Below are positions 12,298 through 61,800 of a stretch of 64,000 nucleotides of DNA, in pieces (position 1 is the stretch's first letter; each line of letters begins with the position of its first letter). The stretch comes from Gemmatimonadota bacterium. Lineage in GTDB: Bacteria > Gemmatimonadota > Gemmatimonadetes > Gemmatimonadales > GWC2-71-9. Below the pieces are notes generated by a model that made no database searches, was not told the DNA's origin, and saw only the letters and a program-made list of their open reading frames with translations. A program made the position numbers and the translations under genes. The stretch is from positions 62,001 through 126,000 of the forward strand of contig SHZU01000006.1 in NCBI GenBank assembly GCA_009692115.1, written 5' to 3'.

Positions 12298-15200
12298 TCA
12301 AGGCTGCCGGAGGTCTCGCACGTTGTCCTTGGGGTCGCGGTCGATCAGTTTGTTGTACGGATCGACCCCGGCCTTCTTGGGCTGGGCGTCGACCACCACG
12401 GTAATCGTGGTGTCCCGGCTCCGAATCCAGTGTTTCGCAAGGTAGAGCGGCTTGCCGAGTTTGTTGCCCGCCTCCTTCTCACCGAACACCCCGATGTCCA
12501 CCAGATCAGCCATTGGGATCTCGGTTTGGCGGCCGAGGCTGTCGGCGCGGAACTTGAGCGACCGAATTTTGATCGCCACGTCGAACTTGCCGTCCGGCCG
12601 CGTCGTAACGACGGCGTCCTCGGCCTTGTCGTCCCAGAGCGTGATGGTGCGGAAGAAGTCCTCGATGGCGTACTTCACCGAGTCCGGGGTTTCAGCGTCG
12701 AGATAGCCGAGGAACTCCCGGCTTGTGGTGAACGGCGGCTTTTGGAACGCCTTGTCTTTGAGGAAGGCCGAGAGCGCGCGGTTCATGGCCGGCTCGCCGA
12801 TCAGGTCGCGAAGGGCGTAGAGGGCGAGTGACCCTTTGTTGTAGTGGATGTACCCCTGGTTTTCCACCAGCATCAGCGGCAGTTCCTTCTTGCTCTCCGT
12901 GCCCCGTCCGCCGAGATATTGATCCAGCTCGTGGGCCAGGAATTTCTGGAGGTTGGTCCGCCCAAACTCTTTTTCCATCGCGGTCAGGGCGGAGTAGTTG
13001 GCCAGGCCTTCGGAAAACAGAGTCGAGCCCTGCACGTTGGCGCCGATCACTTGGTGGGCCCACCACTGGTGACCCACCTCGTGAGCCGTCACGTAGTACG
13101 GCATGTCGAGGTCCCCGTCGCCCGATCCGGTTCGGAGAATGAACCCGATGCTTTCCGAGTAGGGAACCGTGTTCGGAAACGCTTGCGCGAATCCGGCGTA
13201 CCGTGGAAACTCGAGGATCCGGACCTGCTTGAACTGGTAGGGGCTGAAGTTGGCCGAGAAGTATTCGAGGGAGGCCTTCATCGAGGCCATCATCCGGTCG
13301 AGGTTGTACTCGTGGCCCTTGTGGTAGTAGATCTCGAGCTTGATGCCGTTCCACTCGTCCCGCATCACTTCGTAGCGGGCGGACAGGAAGGCGAAGAACG
13401 CCAGCATCGGTTCGTTGGCCTGGTACTCGAACACCCGGCGGCCGTTCTCGTGGTACTCGCGGACCAGGTAGCCCGGCGCGATGGCAATCTGGTCGGGCGC
13501 CGTGCTGACGGTGGCCTTGAACGAGATCCAATCGGCGTTCGATCCGAAGTAGGTCAACGCCCGCGCCGCCTCGTCGTCGAGCGAGGGCATTCGGGCTTTC
13601 GGGGCGAGCTTTTCCTTCCGCCGGTTGTCATCCGAGGCGATTTCGCCCCCTTCTTGATACCCCAGCACCGGGAAATACTCGTAGTTGACGAACGATCCGT
13701 TTGCCACGATTGCGGTGTTGGGCCCGTTCTCCGGAAATCCCCGCTCTTCGAGCCGCGCGCGGTACCGAAGCACGACCGTATCGTTCGGGGCCAACGGCGC
13801 GGCCAGCCGATAAATGTTGGTGCCGAGGAGGCTGTCGTTCACCACCACCTCGCCGGACCGATTCCAGGCCAAGGTGTCGATTCGGAGTTCTCGGCGGCTC
13901 GTGGTGATGAGCAACGAATCGATCGGCCGGGAGTGGTTGTTGACGTAGGTGAACGTGGCGCCGATCGTGAAGGCCCGCCGCTCGGGCTCCAGGTCAGTTC
14001 GAACCACCGCATCGATCATGCGAGGCTGCGGTAGCGTGGCGAGCGGCTTGTAGGTTCGTTCGTACTGGGCCTGGAGCTTGCGATTGGCCTTCGAGCTTCG
14101 ATAGTCGTTGAGCACGTTGGTGTTGTAGAAGATCGTCCCGCCGGCGGCGAACGCTACGGTCAGGCTGGCTCCCGCCACGCCGCGAACCGGGCCCGCCCAC
14201 CGACTCTTGGCCAGTCGGCTCCGAACCGACCACCCCGATTCCGTGCCCCGGACCCAGAAGAGATACGCCACGACGCCGAGCAACCCGGCGACCCCAGTCC
14301 AGTAGAATGCGTTGAGGACCAGATTCGGAACGAAGGGCCCGAAGCCGTTCATGTCCGAATACGTGAGCGGTGCCGCCGCTGCGTACTGGAATAGCTGATG
14401 CTCGAGACCGATTGGGCCCGAGGCCACTCGGAGGACATACACCAGGATCATCACCACATGGCCGACATACTTGTGGTTGACCAAGGCATGCACCGCCGTG
14501 GCGAGGATGGTGAGCTGGACCAACGACGGGAAGGTCGTCCCGAAGAAGTACTTGAGGTAGAGGCCGACCTCGAAGTTGTAGTAGCCCTTGCTGGCCTGGA
14601 TCACCATCCCGGTGACCATCAGCATCACGAGCAACAAGGCTTCGACCATGACAAGACCGCCGAGTTTCCCGAGCAGCGACACGCTGGTTCGGGTGGGCAG
14701 GGCATCGACGATCTGGTCGCTCTGGAGTTGCCGCTCGCGCCAGGCCGCCTCACCGGTGTAGATCGTGATCAAGATGATGAAAAACAGGAAGAACTGGCCC
14801 TCCAACACCTCGGCCATCGTGTAGGTGACCGGCCAGACTTTCGAGCCGTAGAGGGTGTCGACGAACACCGCGGTCATGCCGAGGTTGATGATCCCGATTG
14901 CCACGATCGCGACGAAGGGCACCTGCCGGACGATGGTCCAGAACGAGAGCCGCACGCTCGACACCACTTGGGTCCACCAGGCGCCGAAACCGAACCGCTG
15001 GGTCGGGGTCACGGCCCCGACGGCCGGCGCGGGTGGGGCGGCAACCTCGGCCTTTCGCTTCCGGCCGAGCGTGGGGGGCGCGCTCCGGAACCGGAATAGG
15101 GAGTAGGTCAGCGCCACCAGGCCGAGTGCCACGACCGACCAGGCGAGTCGGTTGCCCAAGAGCAGGCCGCCGAGAGGAATGAGCTGGGTGTTTTTCTCGA

Positions 15201-15876
15201 CCACCGTCCAGTATTGGGTGAGCAGGCTGAAAGCCTGAAGCCCGAGCGGGTCGAGCAGGGCCGCCAGGGCTTTGTTGTCGAGGTCGGTCGTGAGCCGGCC
15301 GGCGATCGACCAGGCCACCAGTAGTACCATGCCTTGGGTGTAGATCGCGAACAGACTTCGGGTCAGGGCGCCGACGGCAAAGAAGATGGCAGAGAGAACC
15401 AGGACCGACGGGATGATCAACACGGCGAACGGCGCCAGGTACGCCATCAAGTTCACGGGCAACATCTTGGTCTTGTCGACCCAGGGCATCAGCGAACCGA
15501 TCAGGAGCCCGAGCGGGATCCCGACGTGCACGAACACCATGATCAAGAACGATCCGAAAAATCGGCCGCCGAGGTAGGCGAAACGGGTAATCGGGGTCGT
15601 GAACAGCAACTCATGGGTGCGATACTGGTAGTCGCGGAGCACCGTGCTGCCGACCAGGCCCGTGGTGATCACTTGTCCGATAGCCACCAGGATCAGCATG
15701 GCCTGGGCAATGACCCAGGGGGCGTTCCGCATCACCTGTCCGGACCCGCCGCTGATCGTGATGACGTCGGAGGCCGACAAGGAGAAGGCCAGAAGGAAGT
15801 AGATCGCGACATACAGATAGGTGACCGGCCGGGTCAGGTGATATCGGACCTCGAACTGAAACATGGTTCCAAACAT
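12298..15876 (-). CDS. ABC transporter permease fused to M1-family aminopeptidase
   Basis: A 1192-residue membrane protein. Residues 1-~570 hold around a dozen hydrophobic helices in two ABC-2-type blocks separated by a charged linker (~270-300). The C-terminal ~570 residues are a gluzincin M1 peptidase domain with zinc motif H932-E-V-G-H936 followed by E956 in TLFSEGLANY. The GAMEN exopeptidase motif of classical M1 enzymes is replaced by FPNTVPYSESIGF, as in other permease fusions, so cleavage specificity may differ. The ATPase gene ends 3 bases upstream of this start, forming a two-gene operon. A role in exporting or processing peptides at the membrane is inferred; the substrate is unknown. 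Confidence 0.92.
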   Translation of the reverse strand: MFGTMFQFEVRYHLTRPVTYLYVAIYFLLAFSLSASDVITISGGSGQVMRNAPWVIAQAMLILVAIGQVITTGLVGSTVLRDYQYRTHELLFTTPITRFAYLGGRFFGSFLIMVFVHVGIPLGLLIGSLMPWVDKTKMLPVNLMAYLAPFAVLIIPSVLVLSAIFFAVGALTRSLFAIYTQGMVLLVAWSIAGRLTTDLDNKALAALLDPLGLQAFSLLTQYWTVVEKNTQLIPLGGLLLGNRLAWSVVALGLVALTYSLFRFRSAPPTLGRKRKAEVAAPPAPAVGAVTPTQRFGFGAWWTQVVSSVRLSFWTIVRQVPFVAIVAIGIINLGMTAVFVDTLYGSKVWPVTYTMAEVLEGQFFLFFIILITIYTGEAAWRERQLQSDQIVDALPTRTSVSLLGKLGGLVMVEALLLVMLMVTGMVIQASKGYYNFEVGLYLKYFFGTTFPSLVQLTILATAVHALVNHKYVGHVVMILVYVLRVASGPIGLEHQLFQYAAAAPLTYSDMNGFGPFVPNLVLNAFYWTGVAGLLGVVAYLFWVRGTESGWSVRSRLAKSRWAGPVRGVAGASLTVAFAAGGTIFYNTNVLNDYRSSKANRKLQAQYERTYKPLATLPQPRMIDAVVRTDLEPERRAFTIGATFTYVNNHSRPIDSLLITTSRRELRIDTLAWNRSGEVVVNDSLLGTNIYRLAAPLAPNDTVVLRYRARLEERGFPENGPNTAIVANGSFVNYEYFPVLGYQEGGEIASDDNRRKEKLAPKARMPSLDDEAARALTYFGSNADWISFKATVSTAPDQIAIAPGYLVREYHENGRRVFEYQANEPMLAFFAFLSARYEVMRDEWNGIKLEIYYHKGHEYNLDRMMASMKASLEYFSANFSPYQFKQVRILEFPRYAGFAQAFPNTVPYSESIGFILRTGSGDGDLDMPYYVTAHEVGHQWWAHQVIGANVQGSTLFSEGLANYSALTAMEKEFGRTNLQKFLAHELDQYLGGRGTESKKELPLMLVENQGYIHYNKGSLALYALRDLIGEPAMNRALSAFLKDKAFQKPPFTTSREFLGYLDAETPDSVKYAIEDFFRTITLWDDKAEDAVVTTRPDGKFDVAIKIRSLKFRADSLGRQTEIPMADLVDIGVFGEKEAGNKLGKPLYLAKHWIRSRDTTITVVVDAQPKKAGVDPYNKLIDRDPKDNVRDLRQP

Positions 15877-19042: not shown

Positions 19043-21289
19043 TTACTGACTGAGCCCGATCCGAGCCTGGTCGATCACCCGGGCCGCGGCTTCCAGGCGC
19101 CCCGCAATCCGGGCCGCCTGTTCCTCGGCCTCTTTCCAGACTCCCTGCTCAATGGCCTCCCGAACGCCGGGCATCGTCTTGACGCCGTAGCCGGTGTAGA
19201 AACCGGGGGCATAGATCTGATGACGGTACCAGGATCGCCGGGGTAGGCCTTCAGGGCTGGTGAACGCCTGCTCGACTTGGATCAGGACTCGGTTGGCCGT
19301 GGTGCGAGCGGTGCCCGTCAGTTTGAATCCCGCGGCGGCCTGGTCGAACCGATCCGCGGCAAGCCGGAGGGTTCCCATCGCGTTGTCGAGCGGTGCCCAG
19401 TTGAGGTGGGGCGCGACGTCCGCTCGGCCGGGCGCTTTCCGAACCAGCCGAGGGTCCTGGATGGCCGCGAAGACTCCTTCGTCCAACTGCCGGTTCCGCT
19501 CAATGGCTGCCTCGCGCCGGGCGGCCAGCAAGGCCTTGATCTCGTCGATGTAGGCCTGGTAGGTGTCCGTCATGTTGCCGAACTGGAACGGAAGCAGTTC
19601 GGCGCTCGCCAGCCGCATCATGGCCGTCCCCACCGTTTGCGCCAACGCCCGGCCATACACGAAGCTGGTATCACTGAAGCGCATGAAGTGTTCGACATTG
19701 TCGTAGATCGAGTGATAGACTCCGTCGCCGCCTTCACCCCCGAAGCCGAGGTTCAGCGAGGCGATACCGGCATGCTGCAGGAACGGCGAGAAATCGGACC
19801 CTGAGCCTAACGCCTCGATCCGGAGCTCGGCACGAGACCGGAGCTCGGCCCGGTCAGGCCCGCTCCCGGAGGCCAACCCCGCCAACTGGGCTCGTTTCCA
19901 GGCCGACAGTCCGGTTTCGGGGTCGGTGATGTCCCGGGCGACGTCGTTGATGAACCGTTCCAGCGAGTGCGAGCCGGCCATCCCGAGGAAGCCCCGGCCG
20001 TTCGAATCGGTGTTGAGGTAGGCGATGGCTTTGTCGGCGAGTTCGGCCCGGTGGGTTTCGACCCATTCGGTGCTGCCGAGCAGCCCTTGTTCCTCGCCGT
20101 CCCATGCCGCGTAGATGATGGTGCGGCGCGGTCGCCAGCCCTGTTTGAGCAGCGTGGCCAGCCCGCGCAGCTCCTCCATCTCCGCGATCAGCCCCGACAA
20201 CGGATCGGAGGCGCCGTTGACCCAGCCGTCCCGGTGGTTGCCCCGAATGATCCACTCATCGGGCCGCTCGGCGCCGGGGATTCGGACAATCACGTTATAG
20301 AGGGGGACCCGATTCCAGTTGAAGGCCAGCTTGATCCGGACCCGGGCCGGTCCAGGCGCGCCAGTCTTGTAGGTGATGGGGAGCGCCCCTCGCCACGACG
20401 GCGGGACGACGTCGCCGCCGAGGGCCGCCAAGAGCGGTTGGGCATCGCCGTAGGAGATCGGCAGCACCGGGATTTTCGTGATGGTCTCGATCTGATTCAA
20501 CGGGAGCGGGGTGACACCCGGCACCGAGCCGCGGCCGGGGGTCGACGGATCGCCGGGGTAGAGCGGCATGTCGGCCACGCTGCCCCGCTGCACGCCGTCG
20601 GAGGGCCGGTACGGTCCCTTGGGATAGACGTCACCCTGCCCATAGCCATCATCGGCTGGATCGGAGTAGATCAAGGTCCCGATCGCGCCGTGTTCGGCGG
20701 CCACTTTGGGCTTGATGCCGCGCCACGAGCCGCCGTACTTGGCAATCACGATGGCGCCTTTGACGGAAATGCCCCGGCGTTCGAGTTCTTCGTAATCGGC
20801 GGGCACGCCGTAGTTCACGAAGACGAGCGGGCCGGTGACATCGCCATCGATCGAATAGGCGTTGTAGGTCGGTAGTTGCTCGGCGAGCTGGGCGGACGAG
20901 GCGTCGCCCGGCACGATCGGTTCCTTCAGCTTGGCCACGAACCGGGTCGGCGCCACCATCTCGACGATTCGCTCCTTCGGAGTCGGGAAGAGGACCTCGA
21001 AGGTTTCGATCTTCGCGTCGAGGCCCCAGCTCGTAAAGAGTTTGACCAGCCACTCGGCGTTGGTCTTGCCATAGGGCGAACCGAGGTGCTGGGGCCGGGC
21101 CGCCAGCACTTTGAGATACGACCGGAGGCTGTCGGGGGCCGGGATAGCCTTGAACTTGGCCTCCCACTGTCGCTGGACCCGGCTGCCATCGGCGGAGAAG
21201 CCCCGCAGCGGGACGGGGTCCTGGGCCGGTTGCGCGATCAGGATACCGGGAAGGACAAAGATGGCAATGCGGGGCAGCAGGGCCTTCAT
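19043..21289 (-). CDS. secreted M28 glutamate-carboxypeptidase-II-like peptidase
   Basis: A 748-residue exported zinc carboxypeptidase. Signal peptide ~1-22 (ending LIAQPAQ). A PA domain interrupts the catalytic domain (~130-330; GPLVFVNYGVPADYEELERRGISVKGAIVIAKYG). Di-zinc ligands are visible: His in RGNHRDGW, Asp in GASDPLSG, Glu-Glu in AAWDGEEQGLLGS, Asp in LNTDSNGRG and His in GVYHSIYDN. The C-terminal ~130 residues match a transferrin-receptor-like dimerisation domain. Length and domain order match N-acetylated-alpha-linked acidic dipeptidase relatives. It is a single-gene unit and probably serves scavenging of peptides outside the cytoplasm. Confidence 0.94.
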   Translation of the reverse strand: MKALLPRIAIFVLPGILIAQPAQDPVPLRGFSADGSRVQRQWEAKFKAIPAPDSLRSYLKVLAARPQHLGSPYGKTNAEWLVKLFTSWGLDAKIETFEVLFPTPKERIVEMVAPTRFVAKLKEPIVPGDASSAQLAEQLPTYNAYSIDGDVTGPLVFVNYGVPADYEELERRGISVKGAIVIAKYGGSWRGIKPKVAAEHGAIGTLIYSDPADDGYGQGDVYPKGPYRPSDGVQRGSVADMPLYPGDPSTPGRGSVPGVTPLPLNQIETITKIPVLPISYGDAQPLLAALGGDVVPPSWRGALPITYKTGAPGPARVRIKLAFNWNRVPLYNVIVRIPGAERPDEWIIRGNHRDGWVNGASDPLSGLIAEMEELRGLATLLKQGWRPRRTIIYAAWDGEEQGLLGSTEWVETHRAELADKAIAYLNTDSNGRGFLGMAGSHSLERFINDVARDITDPETGLSAWKRAQLAGLASGSGPDRAELRSRAELRIEALGSGSDFSPFLQHAGIASLNLGFGGEGGDGVYHSIYDNVEHFMRFSDTSFVYGRALAQTVGTAMMRLASAELLPFQFGNMTDTYQAYIDEIKALLAARREAAIERNRQLDEGVFAAIQDPRLVRKAPGRADVAPHLNWAPLDNAMGTLRLAADRFDQAAAGFKLTGTARTTANRVLIQVEQAFTSPEGLPRRSWYRHQIYAPGFYTGYGVKTMPGVREAIEQGVWKEAEEQAARIAGRLEAAARVIDQARIGLSQ

Positions 21290-23591: not shown

Positions 23592-24865
23592 GCGACGCCG
23601 CTTCGGACAGCCTGAATCATCATCTCGGCGAACAAGTCGACGTCATCGATGGTGGTGAACACGTTCGGGGTGATGCGGAGGCCGCCAAATTCCGGGTGGA
23701 CAATGGCGACCGTCTGGATCTTGTGCTTGTCGAGCAGCCAGGTGTGCAGCTTGACCGGGTCGACACCGTTGATCCCGACCAGCGCGATGGCTCCGGCATA
23801 GGGGGTATCGAGCTGAGTCGGGATCATGACCCGGCTGCTCTCGGCCAGGAGCCGCTTGGCCCACCGATCCCGGAGATACCGCAGCCGCGCAATCTTCCGG
23901 TCGGCGCCGATCGACCGGTGAAAGGCCAGCGCCGCGGCGATGGCATTGTGATTCGCCGCCGGGTGGGTGCCGATCTCCTCGTATTTCCGAATATTCTCGT
24001 CCATCTCCTTCGGCGCCGCCATCAGCGGCCAAAGCCCCTTCTGCTTGTCCTTTTTGACATAGAGGAAGCCGGTGCCGATCGGTGCCAGCAGCCACTTGTG
24101 GAGGCTCGTCCCGTAGTAGTCGCATTTGAGGTCATCGCAGCGGAATGGAAAATGGGCGTAGGCGTGGGCGCCGTCGACGAAGACCTCGATCCCGAGCGGA
24201 CGGGCCATCTCGACGATTTCCCGGACCGGCATGATCTGGCCGGTCAGGTTGGTGATGTGGGTGACTTCGATGACCCGGGTGCGCGGAGTGATGGCGGCCC
24301 GAAACTGATCGACCAGGTACTGTGGTGACGGCGGCGGCACCTTGAAGGCAATCTGCTTGACGACGATTCCATCTCGGCGGACCCGTTGGTCCCAACTGGT
24401 GAGCATCCGGCCGTAATTCTGATTAGTGACGATCACTTCGTCGCCCCGCTTGAGATCCAATCCAAAAATCATGATCTCGTTGGCCTCGGAGGCGTTCCGG
24501 GTAATGGCGATCTCCTCCGGGTCGCAACCGAAATCTCGGGCCAGATCGCGGCGGACACTTTCGATCCGCGGTTCGAGGACGGACCACATGTGGTTGACCG
24601 GGAGTTCGTTGCTGAACCGGAGATCGCGAATCATGGCATCGAGCACGTGGGTCGGGGTCGGGCAGACCCCGCCGTTGTTCAAGTTGACCATGGTGCGGTC
24701 GGTGTCGAACGCCCGCTGAATTTCGCCCCAGTAACTCTCGTCCTCGGGGCCGCCGTCGCCCCGGTCGTTAGCCCGGAGCACCTTGCGGAAGGCGTCCGAG
24801 CGGAAGGCCGGCATGGCGGCGGACACCCCGACGACTGTGGACACGAAATCCCGGCGACTGGCCAT
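23588..24865 (-). CDS. Tat-exported class V aminotransferase-like PLP enzyme
   Basis: A 425-residue fold-type I PLP protein of the isopenicillin-N-epimerase / cysteine-desulphurase-like group. The start at 24865 gives a twin-arginine signal (MASRRDFVSTVVGVSAAMPAF), so it is predicted to leave the cytoplasm folded with cofactor. Class V features: ITRNASEANEIMIFGL, the Asp in EVFVDGAHAYAHFP, and the Schiff-base Lys in GTSLHKWLLAPIGTGFLYV. Exported CefD-like proteins are common in Bacteroidota and Gemmatimonadota, but their substrates are not known. The upstream open frame to 25132 is not protein-like and was rejected. Confidence 0.9.
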   Translation of the reverse strand: MASRRDFVSTVVGVSAAMPAFRSDAFRKVLRANDRGDGGPEDESYWGEIQRAFDTDRTMVNLNNGGVCPTPTHVLDAMIRDLRFSNELPVNHMWSVLEPRIESVRRDLARDFGCDPEEIAITRNASEANEIMIFGLDLKRGDEVIVTNQNYGRMLTSWDQRVRRDGIVVKQIAFKVPPPSPQYLVDQFRAAITPRTRVIEVTHITNLTGQIMPVREIVEMARPLGIEVFVDGAHAYAHFPFRCDDLKCDYYGTSLHKWLLAPIGTGFLYVKKDKQKGLWPLMAAPKEMDENIRKYEEIGTHPAANHNAIAAALAFHRSIGADRKIARLRYLRDRWAKRLLAESSRVMIPTQLDTPYAGAIALVGINGVDPVKLHTWLLDKHKIQTVAIVHPEFGGLRITPNVFTTIDDVDLFAEMMIQAVRSGVA

Positions 24866-25064
24866 GGTCGGACTCTGGGTGGGAGATGCTGCAATCTCCG
24901 CATTCCAGGGGATTCCCGCAAGCGGGCACGCGACTTGCCCCTGCCTCACTCCCATGCGAGCCTCCGAATGGAAGGTCCGAAGCGTCGATCTGCATGCCGT
25001 TGTCCCGCCGCGATTTGGGCGGCCGACTGCAGTCCGCTGCATCGGTGGGATCGGGCGGTCACTC

Positions 25065-28000
25065 TTGCGGGTTGCCCGAACCGGCTTGGGCCTCGGCTTG
25101 GTGGCCCTCGCCGGATGCAAGGGCACCGGCACCGCCGGGCTCGACCAGGAACCGCCGAAGCCAGGGTCGGCGTTGGTCTCGGTGGCCGGGCTTCCGAGCG
25201 GGGCGCCGGCTGCCCTGGTCCTGTCGGGGCCGGCGGGCTACAGCCGATCGATTACCGAGTCGGGGCCGATCGCCAACCTCCCGCCGGGCACCTACACGTT
25301 GGCCGCGGCCGACGTGGTGGTCGACGGCGATGGTTATGCGGTCGCGCCGGTGACGCAAGACGTCGTCGTACGTTCCTCCGCCACCGCGCCGGTGGGCGCC
25401 ACCTATGCGATCCTAACCGGCCGGTTGCTGTTGTCGATCGATGGCGTGGCCGCCGGAACGGCCGATGTCCTCGTGACGGGCCCCACCGGATTCAGCCGGA
25501 CCGTGACGGGGGCCGATACCGTGAAGGGTCTCCCGAATGGCACCTATGTGGTCCGGCCGAGGCCGGTCACGTTCGCCGGTGACCGCTACGAGTCACCGGT
25601 CGATTCCAGCGCCGTGTTGGTGACACCGGGCACTACGCCTTCGCCGGCCTCGGTGCAATACCAGTTGGCCTCGGGCCGGCTCGACCTGTCCATCACCGGC
25701 GTCCCCGCAGGGGCCACCCCGATGATCGCGCTCGACGGCCCGAGCGGGTTCTCGCTTGCGGCCACCGGACCCCAGCTGCTGAAGGGGCTCTTGCCCGGAC
25801 CCTATTCGCTCCATGGCGCCGTCATCAACAGCGACGGCGACCTCTACGAGGCCGACATCGTTCCCTCGACCGTCCAGGTGACGCCGACGCCCGTCGCGCT
25901 GAGTGCGGTCGCCACCTATCAGATCAAGACGGGAGCCCTGACGGTCAATCTGACTGGGCTGCCGAGCGGGGTCCTCGGCAATGTGACCGTGACCGGCCCC
26001 GGCGGGTTCTCGGACCAAGTCAACGCTGATCGAACCCTCCGGGGACTGGCCCCTGGTACCTACACCCTCGCGGCCGCTCCGGTCGCCGTCGGTGCGTCGT
26101 CATATCAGGGGCAGCCCGTGAGTCAGACCGTTGCGGTCACCGCCGGGAAACAGCCGGTGGTCCGCTCGGTGGCATACTCGTTAGGCGTCGGCAGCCTTCG
26201 GGTCACCATCGCGGGGGTCCCGTCTGGCTCGGTGGCCGCGGTGTCGGTGAACGGACCCAACGGATTTTCCCAGAACCTGACCGTCACGACGACGCTGTCC
26301 GGGTTGGCCCCCGGCAGCTATGTCATCGGCGCCGCCGGACTAGTGGCGGGCGGCTACACCTATGGGGCCACGCCGGCGAGCCAAGCCGCCGTGGTCTCGA
26401 TCAATGCCACGACCAACGCGACGGTAACGTACGCAGCCACGACCGGGAGCCTCGCCATTGGGGTCAATGGATTGCGGGGCGGGGCGCCGGCCGCCGTCAC
26501 GGTGACTGGGCCCGGTAGCTTCAACCAGAGCGTGACCGCCGGCACCACGCTGGCTGGGTTGGTCCCGGGGACCTACACTGTGGCTGCTGCATCAGTCAGT
26601 TCCGGAGGCACGACCTACAACCCGTCGCCCACGAGCCAGAGTGCCGTCGTCATGGCCGGCGCGACGGTGACCGCGACGGTGAACTACGCGGGGAACTCGG
26701 GCAACTTGGCAGTGACGATCACTGGCCTTCCGGGCGGGGCGTTAGCGGCGCTCACCGTGACCGGGCCCGGCGGATTCAACCAGAGCCTGACCGCCACCAA
26801 GACCCTCACCGGCCTGACCGCGGGTTCCTACACCATCGCCGCGACCAATGTGACGTCGGGCGGGATCGTGTACCTAGCCGGTCCGGCCTCGCAATCGGCG
26901 TCCGTTACCGTGGGGGGAACGACGCCGGCCACCGTGACCTACACGGCGACCGGCACGCTCACCGTGACGATCACCGGTCTGCCGGGCGGCAATCCGGCCG
27001 CCGTGACGGTGACCGGTCCGGGCGGATTCAACCGGGCGCTAACGGCGACTCAGTCCCTGACCGGTTTGACGGCCGGCTCCTACACCATCGCTGCTGCCAA
27101 CGTCCTGGTTGGCGGTACCACTTACCTCGCCGCCCCGGCCTCGCAGAGTGCCACCGTAACCGCCGGGGCCACCACCACCAAGTCGGTGGCCCACACCGCC
27201 ACCGGCTCGCTCGCCGTGACCGTAGTCGGTTTGCCGGGCGGAGCGATCGCTGCCATCACCGTGACCGGCCCAGGTGGCTACAACCAGTCCGTTACCGCTA
27301 CGACCACGTTGACGAGCCTCGCGGCCTGGTCGTACACGATCGCCGCCGGGAACACCTCCTCCGGCGGGACCTCCTATACGCCGGCTCCGACTTCTCAGTC
27401 GGCGACCGTGACCGGCGGGGCCACGGCCTCGGCGACCGTCACGTACACCATTGGGGCTCCGGTCCCGCTCAACCTGGTCATCGACGGCATGTATCTCACC
27501 CAGGCCGCCGCCAAGTACGACGGATCGACTCCGGTCATTGCCGGACGCGATGCGTACCTCCGGGTGTTCGTCAAGGCGAATCAAGCCAATACCGCAACGC
27601 CGACGGTCCGGGTCCGGCTGTATTCAGGCCCCTCACTGATCCAAACCTCGACCGTCATCGCGTCCGCCGCGAGCGTCCCGACCACGATCACGGAAGGAAC
27701 CTTCTCGAGCTCCTGGAATCTCCTGATCCCGGCCGCGACCGTGCAAGCCAATCTCCGGATCTTGGCCGACGTCGATCCGACCAATGCCGTGGTGGAGTCG
27801 AGCGATGCGGACAACACGTTCCCGGTGACCGGGACGCCGTTTGTGCTCGATGTCCGGACGGTCCCGACCTGGAATGTCCGGTTCGTTCCCGTGCTTCAGT
27901 CGGTGAACAGCCTCCAAGGCAACGTCACCGTCGGCAACGCCGCCACGTTCTTGGTCGATCCGCTCAAGCTGGTTCCGGTCGCGGCCTACAGCGCCGACGT

Positions 28001-29060
28001 CCGGGCCGTCTACACGACCAGCGCGCCGGTGCTGCAGTCCGGGAACGGCAACGGAGCGTGGGGGACGATCTTGAGCGAGGTGGCGGCGCTTCGGAGTGCG
28101 GACGCGAGCAGCCGGTACTACTACGGTGTCGTCAAGACCAGTTACGGCGGCGGCGTGGCCGGCATTGGATATGTCGGCGGCGGAATCCAGACGGCGTTAG
28201 GCTGGGACGCCCTGCCGAGCGGATCTGAGATCATGGCCCACGAACTCGGGCACAACATGGGCCGGTGGCATTCGCCCTGCGGTGGAGCCGGCAGGCCTGA
28301 TCCGGCCTATCCCTACGCCGGTGGCATCGTCGGAACCTACGGATTGGATTTGACGACCCTGGCCGTCAAGGCGCCGACGACCAACTTCGACTTCATGGGG
28401 TACTGCAGCCCGAATTGGGTGAGCGACTATACCTGGTCCGGATTGATCACCTACCGGCAAGCCGGGCCGAACAACGCGCCGCCCGCGCCGTCGAGTGCGG
28501 TGAGCGGCCTGCTGGTCTGGGGCCGAATCGGTCCGCTCGGTGTCGTGCTCGAACCGGCCTTCCGAGTAGCGCCGCCGGCCGCGATGCCGGCAGCGGGCTC
28601 GAGCGGCTATCGGGTCGAGGGCTTAGCGGCCAACGGCCGGATGCTGTTCTCCCATCCGGTTCAGCTCGAGCATACCATGACGATCAACATGGAGCATGAG
28701 GAGCACTTCGTGGCGGTCATCCCGCTCGACCAGGCTCAGGATGACGGGCTGGCCCAACTCCGCTTGGTCACGCCGGCGGGGCCGGTCAACCGGCTCTCGC
28801 CCCAGGCCATCGTTCAGGCCGGGGGCCGGCTCTTCCTGCGGAATCCCGGGGCCGCTATCACCTCACCCGCGGCGGCGCAGGCCACGATCACGTGGGATGT
28901 GGCGACCTATCCAATGGCGATGGTGCGGGATGCCGCCACCGGCGAGATCCTGTCGTTCGCCCGCGGCGGCGCGACGACGATCTGGACCAAAAGCCGGCAG
29001 TTTGACGTGACCTTCACCGACGGCGTTCGGTCGACGGTCCACCGGGTGTCGCTGCCCTAA
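25065..29060 (+). CDS. large repeat lipoprotein with metzincin protease domain
   Basis: A ~1331-residue surface lipoprotein. TTG at 25065 is chosen because it gives a compact signal peptide ending in lipobox LVALAGC; the frame is open further upstream (an ATG at 24954 is possible). Residues ~35-805 are nine tandem ~85-residue beta-sandwich repeats, each with a [LIV]xGLPxG, a VTGPGGFN and a GxYTIAA motif. Then follows a CARDB-like domain (~805-940) and a catalytic domain with the full metzincin site H1059-E-L-G-H-N-M-G-R-W-H and a downstream Met-turn FDFMGYC, resembling M66/StcE-type proteases. A short C-terminal beta domain ends the protein. It likely digests extracellular glycoproteins or matrix polymers; inference. 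Confidence 0.85.
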   Translation: MRVARTGLGLGLVALAGCKGTGTAGLDQEPPKPGSALVSVAGLPSGAPAALVLSGPAGYSRSITESGPIANLPPGTYTLAAADVVVDGDGYAVAPVTQDVVVRSSATAPVGATYAILTGRLLLSIDGVAAGTADVLVTGPTGFSRTVTGADTVKGLPNGTYVVRPRPVTFAGDRYESPVDSSAVLVTPGTTPSPASVQYQLASGRLDLSITGVPAGATPMIALDGPSGFSLAATGPQLLKGLLPGPYSLHGAVINSDGDLYEADIVPSTVQVTPTPVALSAVATYQIKTGALTVNLTGLPSGVLGNVTVTGPGGFSDQVNADRTLRGLAPGTYTLAAAPVAVGASSYQGQPVSQTVAVTAGKQPVVRSVAYSLGVGSLRVTIAGVPSGSVAAVSVNGPNGFSQNLTVTTTLSGLAPGSYVIGAAGLVAGGYTYGATPASQAAVVSINATTNATVTYAATTGSLAIGVNGLRGGAPAAVTVTGPGSFNQSVTAGTTLAGLVPGTYTVAAASVSSGGTTYNPSPTSQSAVVMAGATVTATVNYAGNSGNLAVTITGLPGGALAALTVTGPGGFNQSLTATKTLTGLTAGSYTIAATNVTSGGIVYLAGPASQSASVTVGGTTPATVTYTATGTLTVTITGLPGGNPAAVTVTGPGGFNRALTATQSLTGLTAGSYTIAAANVLVGGTTYLAAPASQSATVTAGATTTKSVAHTATGSLAVTVVGLPGGAIAAITVTGPGGYNQSVTATTTLTSLAAWSYTIAAGNTSSGGTSYTPAPTSQSATVTGGATASATVTYTIGAPVPLNLVIDGMYLTQAAAKYDGSTPVIAGRDAYLRVFVKANQANTATPTVRVRLYSGPSLIQTSTVIASAASVPTTITEGTFSSSWNLLIPAATVQANLRILADVDPTNAVVESSDADNTFPVTGTPFVLDVRTVPTWNVRFVPVLQSVNSLQGNVTVGNAATFLVDPLKLVPVAAYSADVRAVYTTSAPVLQSGNGNGAWGTILSEVAALRSADASSRYYYGVVKTSYGGGVAGIGYVGGGIQTALGWDALPSGSEIMAHELGHNMGRWHSPCGGAGRPDPAYPYAGGIVGTYGLDLTTLAVKAPTTNFDFMGYCSPNWVSDYTWSGLITYRQAGPNNAPPAPSSAVSGLLVWGRIGPLGVVLEPAFRVAPPAAMPAAGSSGYRVEGLAANGRMLFSHPVQLEHTMTINMEHEEHFVAVIPLDQAQDDGLAQLRLVTPAGPVNRLSPQAIVQAGGRLFLRNPGAAITSPAAAQATITWDVATYPMAMVRDAATGEILSFARGGATTIWTKSRQFDVTFTDGVRSTVHRVSLP
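25165..27450 (+). repeat. nine in-frame ~255-bp coding repeats
   Basis: The lipoprotein gene holds nine head-to-tail units of about 84-86 codons. The first three are diverged and the last four (about 26430-27450) are most alike, sharing blocks such as GTGACCGGGCCCGGCGG. The gradient suggests recent expansion at the 3' end by unequal recombination. Confidence 0.85.
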
Positions 29061-29232: not shown

Positions 29233-30621
29233 TCAGAAGGCTCCGAGGGTCGATCCGAGAATCAGCACGGCCACCAAGGCCACCAGCGGCCCGACGACGC
29301 TGACCATGAAGATGTCGAGGTACGACTCGCGATGGGTGAGCCGGCAGATGCCGAGCAGGGTAATGATCGCGCCATTGTGGGGCAGCGAATCGAGGCCCCC
29401 TGAGGCGATGGCCGCCACCCGGTGGAGTAACTCCGGACTGATCCCGGCGGCGGTGCCCATTTCGAGGTAGGTCTTGCCTAACATGCCGAGCGCGATGCTC
29501 ATGCCGCCCGATGCCGAGCCGGTGATGCCGGCCATGACGTTGATGGCGATGGCCTCGGAAATGAGCGGGTTGCCGGGGGTGATCCCGATCAACAAGGCTT
29601 TGATGGCGGCGAACGCCGCCAGGGAGGCGATGACTGATCCGTAGCCGACTTCCGAGGCGGTGTTGAAGATTGGGAGCAGGGAGGACATCGTCCCCTGATT
29701 GACCGTACTCAACAGGTCCGACCACCGCCGCCAGTGCAGCACGATGGCCGCGACCACGGCCACGCCCAAGGCCACGATCAGTGACCAAATGCCGCGCACG
29801 TCGTTCAAGGTCACCCCGCCGTACTTCTTGTCGGCCAAGTACGACACGTCCATGGCCGGGATGACCCACTTCGTGACGGCCAGATTGACGCCGATGACCA
29901 GGAGGATCGGGAGCAACGCCATCGCGAGTCCGGGTTCAGGCACCGTCGGACCGGCGTCCTGACCCTCGAGCGGGTGATCGCCGTACCCCTCGGCGGCCAA
30001 ACCGGCCGACCGGCTCCGGTGGTTGATCCAGAGCATCCCAAAGGCCGCCATGACGAGCGCGGCGAGCATCCCGATGCCCGGCGCCGCAAACGGATCGGTG
30101 CCGAAGTACGGCATCGGGATGGCGTTCTGGATCGCCGGGGTTCCCGGGAGTGCGCTCATCGTGAAGGTCGCCGAGCCTAGGATGATGGCACCGGGAATCA
30201 GCCGTTTGGGTGCGCCGGCGGCGCGGAACAAAGCCACCGCGACCGGGTAGGCCGCAAACGCAACCACGAACACGGATACCCCGCCGTACGTCAGGATCGC
30301 GCAGGAGAGCACGATGGCCAACGGAGCCCGCTTGGCGCCCAATCGGGCCACGATCCACCGGGCAATGGTCGAGGCCGAGCCCGAGTCGCTCATCAGCCGC
30401 CCGAAGATGGCGCCGAGCAAGAACAGGGGAAAATACTTGACCAGGAAACCACCGAGGCTGGTCATGAAGACCTGGGTGTAGGTCGCGAGCAGCCGAGGCT
30501 CACCGCCGAGCAGCGCGGCGAGCAGCGCCAGGACGGGGGCCAGCACCAGCACGTTGATTCCCCGGTAGGCGAGGTACATCAGCAGCGCCAGCGAAACGAG
30601 AATGCCGATGACACCGATCAT
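29233..30621 (-). CDS. GntP-family gluconate/sugar-acid permease
   Basis: A 462-residue inner-membrane H+ symporter. About 12 hydrophobic helices; family landmarks include the start IGVIGILVSLALLMYLAYRG, GAIFGRLMSDSGSAS, the LTYGGVSVFVVAFAAYPVA segment and SALPGTPAIQN. Known GntP members move gluconate, D-serine or related 2-hydroxy acids. It was once followed by an exported protein gene, now a remnant (29057-29231). No gluconate kinase or dehydrogenase is present in the window. Confidence 0.92.
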   Translation of the reverse strand: MIGVIGILVSLALLMYLAYRGINVLVLAPVLALLAALLGGEPRLLATYTQVFMTSLGGFLVKYFPLFLLGAIFGRLMSDSGSASTIARWIVARLGAKRAPLAIVLSCAILTYGGVSVFVVAFAAYPVAVALFRAAGAPKRLIPGAIILGSATFTMSALPGTPAIQNAIPMPYFGTDPFAAPGIGMLAALVMAAFGMLWINHRSRSAGLAAEGYGDHPLEGQDAGPTVPEPGLAMALLPILLVIGVNLAVTKWVIPAMDVSYLADKKYGGVTLNDVRGIWSLIVALGVAVVAAIVLHWRRWSDLLSTVNQGTMSSLLPIFNTASEVGYGSVIASLAAFAAIKALLIGITPGNPLISEAIAINVMAGITGSASGGMSIALGMLGKTYLEMGTAAGISPELLHRVAAIASGGLDSLPHNGAIITLLGICRLTHRESYLDIFMVSVVGPLVALVAVLILGSTLGAF

Positions 30622-30724
30622 GGACTGAGAATGTCCCCGGGCCGCGAAAAGAGCAAGAGGGTTCGGGGGCGGCTAAGTTTGCCCCAGGCGAATCCATCCC
30701 CGACCCGAATCCTGGACGCGACCG

Positions 30725-32914
30725 TTGGTACTCTTTTTTGTGACTGCTCTGGCGGCGGTAGACCTGGCCGCTACCCCAGATACCCTCCGGCCCCGGTTGG
30801 TCGTCGAGGCCGTTACGACGCCGATCCGGCTTGATGGGGTCCTCGACGACGAGGTCTGGCTCCGCGCCAAACCGGCTACCGGCTTCGTCCAAAGCGAGCC
30901 CGCCGAAGGCCAGCCGGCGTCCGAGGCTACGGAGGTCCGGGTGGCGTCCGACGGCCGGACGATCTTCATTGCCGCCTATCTCCACGACCGGGAGCCGGGC
31001 CGGTTGATCGTCAACGATATCAAGAAAGATTTCAAGGAAGAGGACCAAGACGATTTCGAAGTGCTCCTCGACACCTTCGGCGACCGGCGGAACGGCTACG
31101 TCTTCATCACCAACATCGCGAGCGCCAAAGCCGACCGGCAGGTGGCCAATGAAGGGCGAGAGGTCAATACCAGCTGGGACGCGGTCTGGTCCGTCAAGAC
31201 CCGGGTCACCGAGGACGGGTGGATAGTTGAGATGGCCATCCCGCTTCGGTCGCTCCGGTTTGATCCGGCCGCCGGTCACTCGTGGGGGATCAATTTCTCC
31301 CGCCGGATTCGCCGGCGAAACGAAATTTCGTTCTGGGCGCCGATCCCGCGGTCATACAACCTGGCCCGGGTGTCGTTGGCCGGCGATCTGGCCGGCCTCG
31401 CGATCGACGGGGCCGGAAAGAACCTCCGGATCAAACCGTACCTGCTGGGTCGGGCGGTCAGAGAGGTCGGCGGCGGGTCGTTTGCGGAACAGTTCGATGC
31501 TGGCGCGGATGTGAAGGTCGGTGTCGGATCAGGTCTGACCCTCGACGCCACGGTCAATCCCGATTTTGCCCAGGTCGAAGCCGACGAGCAACAGGTCAAC
31601 CTGACCCAGTTCAGCCAGTTCTTCCCGGAAAAACGCGAGTTCTTCCTTGAGAATTCCGGAATTTTCTACGTCGGCGACGCCGCCCGCAACAATCGCGTGG
31701 TTCTCAGCCCGGCGCCCGATGAGGATCTACTGCTCTTTTTCAGCCGGCGAATCGGGCTCGACAAAACCGGGCGGGAGGTTCCGATCCCCGCCGGCCTCCG
31801 CCTGACCGGAAAGCTGGGCGGCTTTTCCCTCGGCGCCGTCTCGATGCAGACGCGCGCCTCCGCGGGATCGCGGGCAACCAACTACGCGGTCTTTCGGCTC
31901 CGCAAGAATGTCCTCAAGGGATCCGATTTCGGGATCCTGTTCATGAACCGCCAGGCGACCGATACCTCCCGGGACTACAACCGGGTCTACGGCGTGGACG
32001 GGAACATCCGATTCTTCGGCAAGGTCGACTGGAATTCCTACCTGATCGGGAGCGCCACCCCGGGCAAGACCGAGGGTCAATATGCGGCCCGGACTTCGGT
32101 CAACTATGAGGGAAACTTCGTGCACGCCAAAGGCGGCGTGCTTCAAGTCGGTGATGGATTCCAGGACGACCTCGGCTATTACCGGCGGACCGGGGTCCGG
32201 AAGTATCTCTTCGATATCGGGCTTCGGCCCCGCCCGGCCTGGCTCAAGCGCCGCGGCGTCCGAGAAGCCCACCCGCATATCGTCTGGGACTTCTATACCA
32301 ATCTCTCGGGCCGGCTCATCGCGAAGAAACTCCACACCGGCAATACGTTTTTCTTCAGTAACGGGGCCTTCGCCGAACTGTCGTGGAATCCCGCCCTGCA
32401 GGAGATCATGTCGCCATTCAAGATCAGTCCGGACATCGCGCCGATCCCGGCCGGCCGCTATGCCTGGACGGAAAAACAGCTCTTCGTGAGCACCGATCCT
32501 AGTCGGGCATTGAGTCTGTCGAGCCGGTTCATCGTCGGCGGACTCTGGAGCGGCACCCAGCGAACGGTCAATGGCACCCTCACGATCCGGCCGAATTACC
32601 GGTTTCGCTTTTCCGCCGGCCTCCAGCGGACGTCGGCTGATCTCAATGCCCCGGCCGGGGCCCATTTTACCAGCACCTTGGTTACCGCCCGGGGCAATTA
32701 CAGTTTCAGTACCACCATGTTTCTCGACGCCATGGCCCAGTACGATCCGGGCCGCCACACGTTTAACGCCAACGTCCGGTTCAACTTGATTCACCATCCG
32801 CTCAGCGACCTCTACGTGGTACTGAATGAACAACGGATCAACGATCCGATGCAGCCCGACCTTGTGCCGGGCCGAAGCCTGATTGTCAAAGCCACCCACA
32901 TGTTGGCCTTCTGA
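30725..32914 (+). CDS. DUF5916-family outer-membrane protein with CBM9-like domain
   Basis: A 729-residue exported protein. Start TTG at 30725 gives a signal peptide (MVLFFVTALAAVDLAA). Residues ~25-215 are a carbohydrate-binding-family-9-like domain (PIRLDGVLDDEVWLRA; then DDFEVLLDTFGDRRNGYVF), followed by the DUF5916 barrel region (DATVNPDFAQVEADEQQVNLTQF and FFPEKREFFLENSGIF, both strong family marks) and many amphipathic strands to a terminal MLAF. The family is abundant in Gemmatimonadota and Bacteroidota; it is thought to sit in the outer membrane, with function not established. The SDR gene follows 10 bases downstream. Confidence 0.88.
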   Translation: MVLFFVTALAAVDLAATPDTLRPRLVVEAVTTPIRLDGVLDDEVWLRAKPATGFVQSEPAEGQPASEATEVRVASDGRTIFIAAYLHDREPGRLIVNDIKKDFKEEDQDDFEVLLDTFGDRRNGYVFITNIASAKADRQVANEGREVNTSWDAVWSVKTRVTEDGWIVEMAIPLRSLRFDPAAGHSWGINFSRRIRRRNEISFWAPIPRSYNLARVSLAGDLAGLAIDGAGKNLRIKPYLLGRAVREVGGGSFAEQFDAGADVKVGVGSGLTLDATVNPDFAQVEADEQQVNLTQFSQFFPEKREFFLENSGIFYVGDAARNNRVVLSPAPDEDLLLFFSRRIGLDKTGREVPIPAGLRLTGKLGGFSLGAVSMQTRASAGSRATNYAVFRLRKNVLKGSDFGILFMNRQATDTSRDYNRVYGVDGNIRFFGKVDWNSYLIGSATPGKTEGQYAARTSVNYEGNFVHAKGGVLQVGDGFQDDLGYYRRTGVRKYLFDIGLRPRPAWLKRRGVREAHPHIVWDFYTNLSGRLIAKKLHTGNTFFFSNGAFAELSWNPALQEIMSPFKISPDIAPIPAGRYAWTEKQLFVSTDPSRALSLSSRFIVGGLWSGTQRTVNGTLTIRPNYRFRFSAGLQRTSADLNAPAGAHFTSTLVTARGNYSFSTTMFLDAMAQYDPGRHTFNANVRFNLIHHPLSDLYVVLNEQRINDPMQPDLVPGRSLIVKATHMLAF

Positions 32915-58880: not shown

Positions 58881-61800
58881 ATGAGACGCGTCGTGGCGCG
58901 TTCGGTCTACGTGGTGCTCTTGGCGCTGGTGGCGTCCGCGCTTGGCACGGTGACGGCCATGATGCGGACCCCACCGGGCCGGGACCTGTTGGCCCGGCTT
59001 CTGTCGGAGGAGTCCAACCGTCTGGTGCGAGGGTCGATCACGATTGGGCGGATCCGCGGCGACTTTGTCTCGACCCTCACGCTCGATTCGGTGGTAATTC
59101 GCGACACCACCGGCGCGCTGCTCGCCGACGTCGGCCAACTCGACCTCCGGTTTCGGCTCGCCAACCTGCTGAGCAAGCGGTTCTTGTTCGACGCGGTCCG
59201 GGCCGTGGCGCCACGGCTCGAGGTTACCAAGCATCGCGGCGGCCGGATGAACTACCAAGAAATTCTGAAGCTCGACGAGGGTCCGCCGGGCACCGGCCCC
59301 GGCACCCTGCTTCAGCTCGACCGGTTGGAGATCGTGGACGGACAGCTGACGATCCGGACCCCGTGGAATCCAGATGGCCGATTGACGACTGACACCCAGC
59401 GCGACTCGGCGTTGGCGGCGGAGCGGGCCCGTCCGGGACGGACCATCGAGGCGGGCGCGTTGCCGACCGACAGCTTGATGCTGGTCCGAGTGGTCAGTCG
59501 GCTTCACGGCCGGTTTCCATCGATGCGGATTTCCTCTCCGGACCGCCGCCCGTTTTCCACCACTATCGACTCGTTGGCGGCGGCGGTCAGCGATCCGGGC
59601 CTCACGATTCGTGACCTGAAGGGGGAGGTCACCCAGGGGGGAGACAGCCTGCTGTTCCGGTTGAACCGGGCGGCGTTGCCCGCCACGGTGGTCAGCGGGT
59701 CCGGCCGGCTCGATTGGCCGGCCGACACGGTGCTTTACCAATTTGCGCTCTCGGCAACCGCCGTTGACTTGGCCGATCTCCGCTGGGTTTCGCCGGAATT
59801 TCCGGCGCTTGCCGGGGTCGGGCAAGTCACGGCCAATTCGCTGGCCGGGAGCCGGACCGAGTACGATATCACCGGGCTCGACCTCCGGGGCGGCGGTAGT
59901 CGGGTCCGCGGTGATATGGTGGCCATCCTGGACAGCTATCGGGGGCTCGGGTTCCGGGGGCTCTCGCTCTTGTTGCAGAATTTCGATTTGGAAACCGTTC
60001 GGCCGTACCTCGACACCCTGCCGTTCGCCGGGCGGATCGCGGGTCCACTTAGGGCCGCCGGATTCTTCGACCGGATGTCGGTCGAGGCGGACTGGCAGTT
60101 CGCGGACGGCCGGGTCGAGGGGGGCGCGTCGAACCGGGTGGCGTTCGCGGGCGATCTGAGCTTCGGCGGGGCGGAGGGGATTTTTTTCCACAAGATGGCG
60201 CTCCGGCGGTCGGACTTTGATCTCCGGACGGTGCGGATGGTGACGCCCGCGGTTCGGCTGGACGGGCGATTGGTGCTCGACGGGTCGCTGGCGGGGCCGT
60301 GGCGGAATGTGGTATTCGACGGCCGGGTCGAGCACCAGGACGGCGATCGTCCGATGAGCGCCCTGACTGGTCGCACTCGGCTCGACACCCGCGGCGCCCT
60401 GCTCGGTGTCGACGCCGTCCTCACGGTCGACACGCTGGCCTTCGACGGGATTCGCCGAAGCTTTCCAACCACCCCGATGCGAGGCTCGGTTCGGGGCTCG
60501 GTGCGCTTGGCGGGATTCATGGATTCGGTGAGGATCGAGGCTGATGTGGCCGGCGCGATCGGGCACTACCGGGTGACCGGGGAGGCGGGCCTCCTCCCCC
60601 CCCGATGGGAAGCCCGGGGCCTCCGGATCGATTTCACGAATGCCGACGTGGCGATGGTGGGCGGCCGGGGACCGTCGACCCGGCTGACCGGCCGGCTTGA
60701 TCTCTCGGGGCGGATCGACAGTCTGGTGGCGCCGGAGGCTGGCCTTGCACTCCGGCTTCAGGCGGGGCGGATCGCGGATCTTGCCATCGATTCGGGTTCG
60801 ATGCGGCTCTCGATCCACGACAGCCTGCTGACCGTCGACACCGCGGCCGTGCATTGGTTGGGCGGCGGGTTTTTCAGCCGGGGCACCCTGGGCTGGTTCG
60901 AGCCCCATCGGGGGATCCTGTCGGTGGAGGCCGTGGCGTTGAGCCTGGCGCCGTTTGATTCGCTGCTGGCCTCCCTCGCCAGCCTCGCCCGGGGCCAGAT
61001 CAGCGAGGAGGATCTGCTGAGCGGCCGGGGGCGATTCGGCGCCACGGTGACCGGATCGCTGGACCGTTTCGTGGTGAAGGGATCGGCACGGGTCGACTCG
61101 GTCGGGTGGTTCGACTCCCGGCTCCGGCTCGGGAGCGGCACCCTCACGGCAGAGGGCGGCCGGCTCGATTCGCTGCGCTTCAGGACCGCGTTCACGATCG
61201 ACACGGTGGTCCGGGGCCGGTTGGTGTTCGACGACCTCGGCGTTTTGGCGGACGGGTCGCCGACGGACTTTCGCTGGACGGTCGGTGGCGGTGGCCGGGG
61301 CGGGAGCCGCCTGACGGCTTCGGGGGGATGGTCCGATCCGGTGAAGGGGCCCCGGGTCTTCAAGGTCGACTCCTTGGCCGTTGCGGTCGGGGGACGACGA
61401 TGGGTGCTCGAACGCCCGACGGCGGTGGTGCTCGATTCGGTGGCCATTACCGATAGCGTCGTGCTCGCGACCGATGATGGGTCGGGATTGATCGAGTTGT
61501 CGGGGAGCCTGCCGGGCCGAGGCCAGGGCCGGGCCGAGATTCGGGCGCTGGGTGTGGCGTTAGGCGATCTGTATGCGCTGGCCCAGCGCGACACGACCGG
61601 CCTCCGGGGGCTGGTCGCGATCGATGCGAGGATTTCGGGCACCCAGAAGGCTCCGACATTCCGGGGGTCGGCGACGGTGACCGGACCGGTCGTCGGCGAC
61701 GTGGTGGCCCCGTTGGTGCGGACCGTGTTCAACTACGAAGACCGGGTGCTGCAAGCCAACCTTACGTTCTGGCGGACCGGCCGGCCGGTTCTCGACGTCG

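Follow-up and report, generated by a model that had tools for sequence, protein, structure and literature searches.

A predicted surface lipoprotein of Gemmatimonadota with an M66-like metzincin head on a stalk of nine repeats

A 64,000-nucleotide stretch from a Gemmatimonadota bacterium (assembly GCA_009692115.1, contig SHZU01000006.1, positions 62,001–126,000 of the forward strand), hereafter called the window, contains an open reading frame (ORF) at 24783–29060 on the forward strand, whose likely coding part is 25065–29060. Its product is probably a vertically inherited protease of the outer cell surface, a lipoprotein in which an M66-like metzincin head is carried on a spacer stalk of repeats. 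The features of this protein are listed below. Coordinates are those of the window, and the residues of the head are numbered from position 27447.

25065–25115 (+), predicted signal peptide (MRVARTGLGLGLVALAG) with a TTG start, from the reading frame and the TTG of congeners.
25107–25118 (+), lipobox LAGC with the predicted lipid-anchored N-terminal Cys (codon 25116–25118), from the sequence pattern.
25164–27452 (+), nine tandem repeats of 84–86 residues, from pairwise comparison, hidden Markov model (HMM), and alignment.
25164, 25416, 25671, 25929, 26187, 26442, 26697, 26949, and 27201 (+), starts of the nine repeats.
27453–27857 (+), CARDB-like beta-sandwich between the stalk and the protease, from a weak Pfam CARDB match and the 3idu match of a low-confidence model.
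27858–28481 (+), putative metzincin-type, M66-like protease domain, from alignments and profile matches; the model of the isolated domain counts against it.
28239–28271 (+), zinc site HELGHNMGRWH, with H, E, H, and H invariant in 47 of 47 heads.
28389–28406 (+), Met-turn DFMGYC, with D315, M317, Y319, and C320 invariant in 47 of 47 heads.
28482–29057 (+), C-terminal beta-rich region, partly conserved in the alignment (WDxxxYPMAMVRDAxTGEILSFARGG...FSDGVRS).

The start codon is likely TTG at 25065, because three of the four congeners examined (L031, L032, and L034) have an in-frame TTG, with nearly identical following bases, at the corresponding position. The fourth, L033, has CTC there. A predicted signal peptide is followed by a lipobox ending in Cys, the combination by which bacterial lipoproteins are recognized, and the homologues also have a lipobox-like Cys near the N-terminus (by pattern; by eye for L055 and L056). 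A preliminary description of this DNA had proposed a surface lipoprotein with nine repeats of about 85 residues and a complete metzincin site with a Met-turn. All of these features are recovered here: the lipoprotein on the signal peptide and the LAGC lipobox, with lipidation as a prediction only, the repeats as nine consecutive units, and the zinc site and Met-turn as elements conserved throughout the family.

In total, 55 heads were gathered (28 and 27 rows), and 47 of them are in the alignment A5. Outside it are L033, L039, L045, L050, the larger L048 copy, L094, and both pieces of L109. Of the two L109 pieces, the second is a C-terminal fragment that lacks the motif; the other seven left-out heads show HExGH. 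Invariant in all 47 rows are R39, P126, P177, H265, E266, G268, H269, H275, P289, G299, D315, M317, Y319, C320, and S326. The complete site is not a product of chance, because H265, E266, H269, H275, M317, and C320 are among these. The window protein has the extended metzincin motif HExxHxxGxxH, and Met317 is the invariant Met of the Met-turn. Based on the metzincin pattern, His265, His269, and His275 are predicted to be zinc ligands and Glu266 the general base. The Gly of HExxHxxG is retained in 30 of the 47 heads and replaced in 17. A subgroup (L044, L045, L046, L048, and L050) has HEWGHNFSR, in which the metzincin Gly is Ser and the zinc ligands are all kept. All 47 heads have a Cys no more than six residues downstream of the third His. 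The window head contains only two Cys, so a disulfide Cys278–Cys320 linking the zinc helix and the Met-turn is likely. Among the 30 best loci of the phylum survey, 29 show [AT]HExGH-x5-H-Cys and then DxMxYC, and the thirtieth, L026, has HELGHNFGRSH. A stricter motif pattern missed nine of these 30 loci, where the Gly is Ser, Asp, or Glu. To our knowledge, the HAPCG and MGYC contexts are peculiar to the family of the window protein in comparison with adamalysin motifs.

The head is a phylum-wide family of Gemmatimonadota. It is matched (E ≤ 1e-5) in 131 of 298 genomes sampled from the phylum and in 51 of 119 genera, and the earlier view that such a protein is unusual in a soil-type bacterium does not hold for this phylum. 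For 77 of the 131 matching genomes at least two head matches are listed (hand count); as a rule four candidates were scored per genome, so the head copy numbers are lower bounds. In its own genome the head is single copy: no paralogue was found for the head (E ≤ 0.001), and none for the repeat in any other protein (E ≤ 0.01). The named relatives are the Gemmatimonadota metagenome-assembled genomes L051–L054, L051 being a contig of the congener G041. Two relatives lie outside the phylum, L055 (titled delta proteobacterium) and L056 (Polyangium), with 26–30% identity. The scan of genome contigs gave these six loci; L051 and L052 repeat genes already represented by L031 and L036, which are counted once. 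Three viral-labelled IMG/VR contigs (L057, L058, and L059) each carry a gene for a distantly related metzincin lipoprotein that contains HELGHNFGS[RK]HTHWCG. They are the sole finds of the viral contig scan and are kept out of the counts.

Over the 47 heads, Pfam M66 is matched at E ≤ 0.01 by 35 (best 2.1e-13), Reprolysin_3 by 29, and Reprolysin_5 by 25. The M66 cut-off is passed by nine of ten divergent class-level relatives and by two of ten others, mostly closer ones. At full length the window protein scores 18.4 of 22.4 bits for Reprolysin_3 and 14.5 of 20.6 bits for M66; the window head alone scores 16.0 of 20.6 bits for M66 and 20.0 of 22 bits for Reprolysin_4. The orthologue in G041 is close to the M66 cut-off, under it in one scan (19.4 bits) and over it in another (21.3 bits). 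A scan of 61 genomes of the family gave M66 matches that pass the cut-off in 11, and none in the genome of the window; some of these matches fall in short frames and could belong to different M66 proteins. The best weak match of the window protein in NCBIfam is CpaA (NF033511; E 0.0014, 17–18.8 of 750 bits), and Mep72 (NF052434) is weakly matched by 11 of the 47 heads (13.3–15.7 of 645 bits). CARDB is matched in the window head with E 0.0088 (16.7 of 22.7 bits), and 11 of 28 heads match it at E ≤ 0.01. When the head profile is compared with solved structures, the top matches listed are leucurolysin-A, an adamalysin (E 1.4e-4), and fragilysin (E 0.0014). StcE is absent among the best 60 of 79 and the best 60 of 143 such matches, and its absence there is not exclusion. 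The head thus appears M66-like at the level of the family and is not a confirmed member of M66. Of the M66 likeness proposed in the preliminary description, the family-level part stands (35 of 47 heads; nine of ten distant relatives over the cut-off), and the window protein itself is under the cut-off. The metzincin fold of the head is well supported by its sequence, whereas two low-confidence structure models disagree on it.

Two structure models of the head are available. The AlphaFold2 model of the 537-residue head, made from seven sequences, has a mean predicted local distance difference test score (pLDDT) of 54.2 and a predicted template modelling score (pTM) of 0.43. The AlphaFold model of the isolated protease domain (215 residues) has a mean pLDDT of 54.7 and a pTM of 0.60. 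For the longer model, the top VIA-align match is StcE (Z 8.2, 238 residues, root-mean-square deviation (rmsd) 5.7), which covers model residues 17–329, that is, the CARDB-like part and the protease. Over residues 138–339 the matches are fragilysin (Z 7.6, 137 residues, rmsd 3.6), ADAM17 (Z 7.1, 143 residues, rmsd 4.2), 6o38, which we take to be CpaA–CpaB (Z 7.1, 147 residues, rmsd 4.1), and PAPP-A (Z 6.0, 150 residues, rmsd 5.0); a Z under 8 may mean merely a common arrangement. Residues 23–139 match the CARDB domain of PF1109 (3idu; Z 7.4, 97 residues, rmsd 2.8), and dextranase beta-sandwiches are near the top of the list over the same CARDB-like part (Z 7.7). The last 60 residues of the head match the small domain 5ag8 (Z 7.0, 57 residues, rmsd 2.2) in this low-confidence model.

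The stalk consists of nine units with pairwise identities of 26–71% in amino acids and 42–67% in DNA. An HMM built from the nine units recovers the same nine in the window protein, which is circular for the window. The repeat array is 24.9% Ser and Thr, and R5–R9 contain no Asp or Glu and zero to two Lys or Arg apiece. Scanning the nine units singly against Pfam (E ≤ 1) gave three families and no convincing match, the best E being 0.012 (Calycin_like, two of nine units). At full length, the Pfam match to BatD scores 14.7 of 24.1 bits, below the cut-off. Against solved structures, the nearest match of the repeat profile is a surface anchored protein (E 0.0048, weak). The sequence pattern and these weak PDB profile matches suggest that the repeats are beta-rich, with a prealbumin/Ig-like fold. 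No conserved isopeptide Lys is seen in the nine-row alignment of the repeat. Judged by the Pfam and NCBIfam libraries, with no literature search aimed at it and with its occurrence surveyed inside the phylum, the repeat unit appears to be undescribed.

The number of units varies. In the genus it is nine in the window, seven in G041, nine in G167, eight in G109, and seven in G037; among homologues the repeat HMM finds one to 18 units with the head retained. Homologues with other repeat counts, which the preliminary description had suggested looking for, thus exist at both levels. Among 26 head-bearing Gemmatimonadota proteins (the window protein and 25 others, two duplicates removed), 24 have one to 18 units, with at least one unit above 20 bits in each. 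The remaining two, L042 and L049, have no clear repeat (15.3 and 1.2 bits) and carry a different N-terminal sequence instead. In three genomes (L046, L047, and L048), two head-bearing genes are adjacent, one short-stalked (three repeats) and one long-stalked (eight, 18, and eight repeats, respectively).

The similarity among repeats rises towards the head, and this gradient had been taken as a sign of recent copy-number change. In the pairs among R7, R8, and R9, which are the most similar repeats, identical residues have identical codons in 42–46% of cases, and 42% is expected at synonymous saturation under the gene's own codon usage. Since synonymous positions are saturated, no R7–R9 pair is recent, and these repeats are not recent copies. 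In the FastTree phylogeny of 46 units from six genomes (no support values printed), the units at each of the first four positions form a cluster across the five congeners, with one G121 unit falling within group 4. The last units of the window, G041, and G167 cluster, those of G109 and G037 stand apart, and the block between is variable. Matching units of the window and G041 are 49, 60, 54, and 57% identical for units 1–4 and 61, 72, and 68% for units 6, 8, and 9, and the heads are 76% identical. Because orthologous repeats are also more conserved towards the head, the gradient would at least partly reflect constraint that rises in this direction. Thus, the copy number itself varies, but the gradient cannot be read as the trace of a recent change, given the saturation in R7–R9 and the positional orthology of repeats 1–4. 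Recent repeat duplication, which was considered as a candidate, is ruled out by the codon comparison and the repeat tree.

The same repeat occurs outside the protease. Over 61 genomes, the repeat profile is found in 17 (E ≤ 1e-10). Ten proteins were fetched from repeat places that do not coincide with a protease match (by eye). None of them matches the head (E ≤ 1e-3), each has one to three repeats, and all ten have a lipobox-like Cys ahead of the repeat (by eye). Two contain a glucose/sorbosone dehydrogenase domain (E 1.4e-45 and 1.7e-40) and one contains NHL/propeller repeats (E 2.2e-11). At 1e-3, Pfam gives nothing for the remaining seven, six of which were also scanned against NCBIfam. By eye, L087, L088, L089, and L092 seem to form one lyase-like family, with a very weak HepC match in one of them (E 0.0096), and L085, L086, and L091 seem to form another uncharacterised, beta-rich family. 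What is new here is that this repeat, which has no convincing Pfam match, also precedes non-protease heads. Because it does so in lipoprotein-like proteins, the repeat looks like an interchangeable stalk. There is about an even chance that the 85-residue unit is an undescribed surface-display cassette of Gemmatimonadota, a lipid-anchored stalk of one to 18 units whose length differs by lineage and which carries at least five kinds of heads: the M66-like protease, with the longest stalks seen, a PQQ-type glucose/sorbosone dehydrogenase, an NHL propeller, a lyase-like protein, and a beta-rich protein (the last two by eye).

It can be proposed that the protein is exported by Sec, lipid-modified at the Cys of codon 25116, and thereby anchored in the outer membrane. 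The nine prealbumin/Ig-like repeats, a fold suggested by their sequence, would form a stalk rich in Ser, Thr, Gly, and Ala, with the five head-proximal units nearly uncharged. This stalk would keep the M66-like metzincin head at a distance from the cell, and its length would be free to vary between one and 18 units. The invariant residues suggest that the head binds Zn through His265, His269, and His275 and cuts extracellular proteins with Glu266 as the base. The stalk is most likely a spacer rather than a substrate-selecting part, because the unit number varies from one to 18 and the repeat precedes other heads.

Several results weigh against the proposal of a stalked M66-like metzincin. None of the Pfam and NCBIfam models that match the window protein does so above its cut-off. 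A Foldseek search with the 537-residue model gives no match at E ≤ 0.001; its list is headed by dextranases, and fragilysin and 6o38 hold ranks 6 and 35. With the model of the isolated domain, unrelated proteins (Z up to 6.0) rank ahead of the metzincins, of which the best, fragilysin, has a Z of 3.5. Both models are of low confidence, with a mean pLDDT of about 54–55, and they disagree; in this structural check of the catalytic domain, the longer model matches metzincins, and the shorter one does so weakly, behind unrelated proteins. Concerning the stalk, 20 further head loci were hand-chosen, not at random, from more distant rows, and the repeat is detected in one of them, L112, which belongs to the same family as the window. 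It is not detected in the 19 loci from other families of the class, and therefore the head does not need the stalk.

The nearest described design appears to be that of CpaA of Acinetobacter (MEROPS M72; NF033511), in which tandem repeats are likewise followed by a C-terminal metzincin head, a likeness of layout alone that does not imply homology of the repeats. According to PMC7542363, the four tandem Ig-like repeats of CpaA and its head together form the cleft, and the protein is secreted by the type II secretion system (T2SS), whereas the window protein has nine repeats, is predicted to be lipid-anchored, and belongs to a family with a variable repeat number. By analogy, the repeats could be glycan- or protein-binding modules that shape the substrate cleft, and the enzyme an O-glycoprotease for extracellular glycoproteins. 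CpaA is also the best weak NCBIfam match, and the same source describes both StcE (M66) and CpaA (M72) as glycoproteases. However, repeat numbers of one to 18 on the same head fit poorly with a precisely shared cleft, L042 and L049 carry the head with another N-terminal sequence and no clear repeat, and the repeat is found on other heads, so that we regard such modules as unlikely. That the repeats are a selfish or phase-variable array that expanded recently is far less probable still. The differing counts among congeners (9, 7, 9, 8, and 7) would fit it, but saturated synonymous positions, a repeat DNA identity of at most 67%, and the positional orthology of repeats 1–4 speak against it, and it is contradicted for the window genome.

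Somewhat short of an even chance is given to a general protease for nutrient scavenging or processing of the own surface, without glycan preference, whose M66 likeness is that of the metzincin core only. This is compatible with the stalk part of the preferred explanation. Among the PDB profile matches listed, adamalysins/ADAMs and fragilysin are the strongest and StcE does not appear, and the Pfam matches of the neighbouring genes show no glycan-degradation operon. On the other hand, M66 is the commonest Pfam match of the heads, and its cut-off is passed in many relatives.

The stalked, lipid-anchored protease that we favour resembles other known proteins in part. With M66 (Pfam PF10462; StcE and TagA) it shares HExxHxxGxxH and a profile match around the zinc site, over head residues 233–293 in the window and to 342 in L042, and StcE is the top VIA-align match of the 537-residue, low-confidence model. 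It differs in its scores (14.5–16.0 bits against a cut-off of 20.6), in the replacement of the motif Gly in 17 of 47 heads, and in being a predicted lipoprotein with a repeat stalk, whereas StcE is secreted by T2SS according to PMC7542363. Mep72 (NF052434) has the metzincin core in common, but the match is far below the curated cut-off. The adamalysins/reprolysins (M12B) and fragilysin are the closest solved-structure sequences to the head profile among the matches listed, but the match is limited to about 40–140 residues ending at the zinc helix. The segment 27453–27857 aligns with 3idu (Z 7.4) as a CARDB domain (PF07705) would, but the window protein is under the CARDB cut-off.

The locus is inherited vertically within the family, because its neighbourhood is conserved in six relatives of the same family (L031–L036). 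Genes for an aminotransferase class V, an SDR, and a YCF48-like protein flank the protease in all six, and desaturase and metallo-beta-lactamase-fold genes are present in five of six each. Fourteen other loci were searched and do not share this neighbourhood. Between the protease and the start of the SDR there are at most about 100 bases in L031, L033, L035, and L036, and 1.3–1.5 kb in L032 and L034. In the window, two genes (29233–32914) lie between the protease and the SDR and match none of the loci of 20 relatives. One encodes a membrane transporter that resembles GntP by eye and has no Pfam match at 1e-5, and the other a DUF5916/CBM9-like protein. The Pfam matches of the neighbours give no pointer to mucin use and no glycan-degradation operon, with one neighbour having a CBM9-like domain. 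Nothing in the analysis points to a role of the window protein in mucin degradation or virulence. Elsewhere in the window are a predicted M28 peptidase with PA and transferrin-receptor-dimer domains (19043–21289, −), an M1-domain protein that is a predicted peptidase (12298–15876, −), and a long TamB-domain protein (58881–63335, +).

According to PMC7542363, the M66-type metzincins are known above all as glycoproteases that pathogens secrete. Abstracts describe Gemmatimonadota as a phylum known from soil and freshwater, with few cultured members, and in the accessible portions of the genomics literature on this phylum no relevant passage on peptidases, M66, or metalloproteases was found. That 131 of 298 sampled genomes of such a phylum have a related head, whose active site is invariant, suggests a wider ecological role for M66-type enzymes. 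The head family offers candidate proteases, possibly with new specificity. The common stalk unit may provide a handle on how enzymes are displayed at the surface of Gemmatimonadota.

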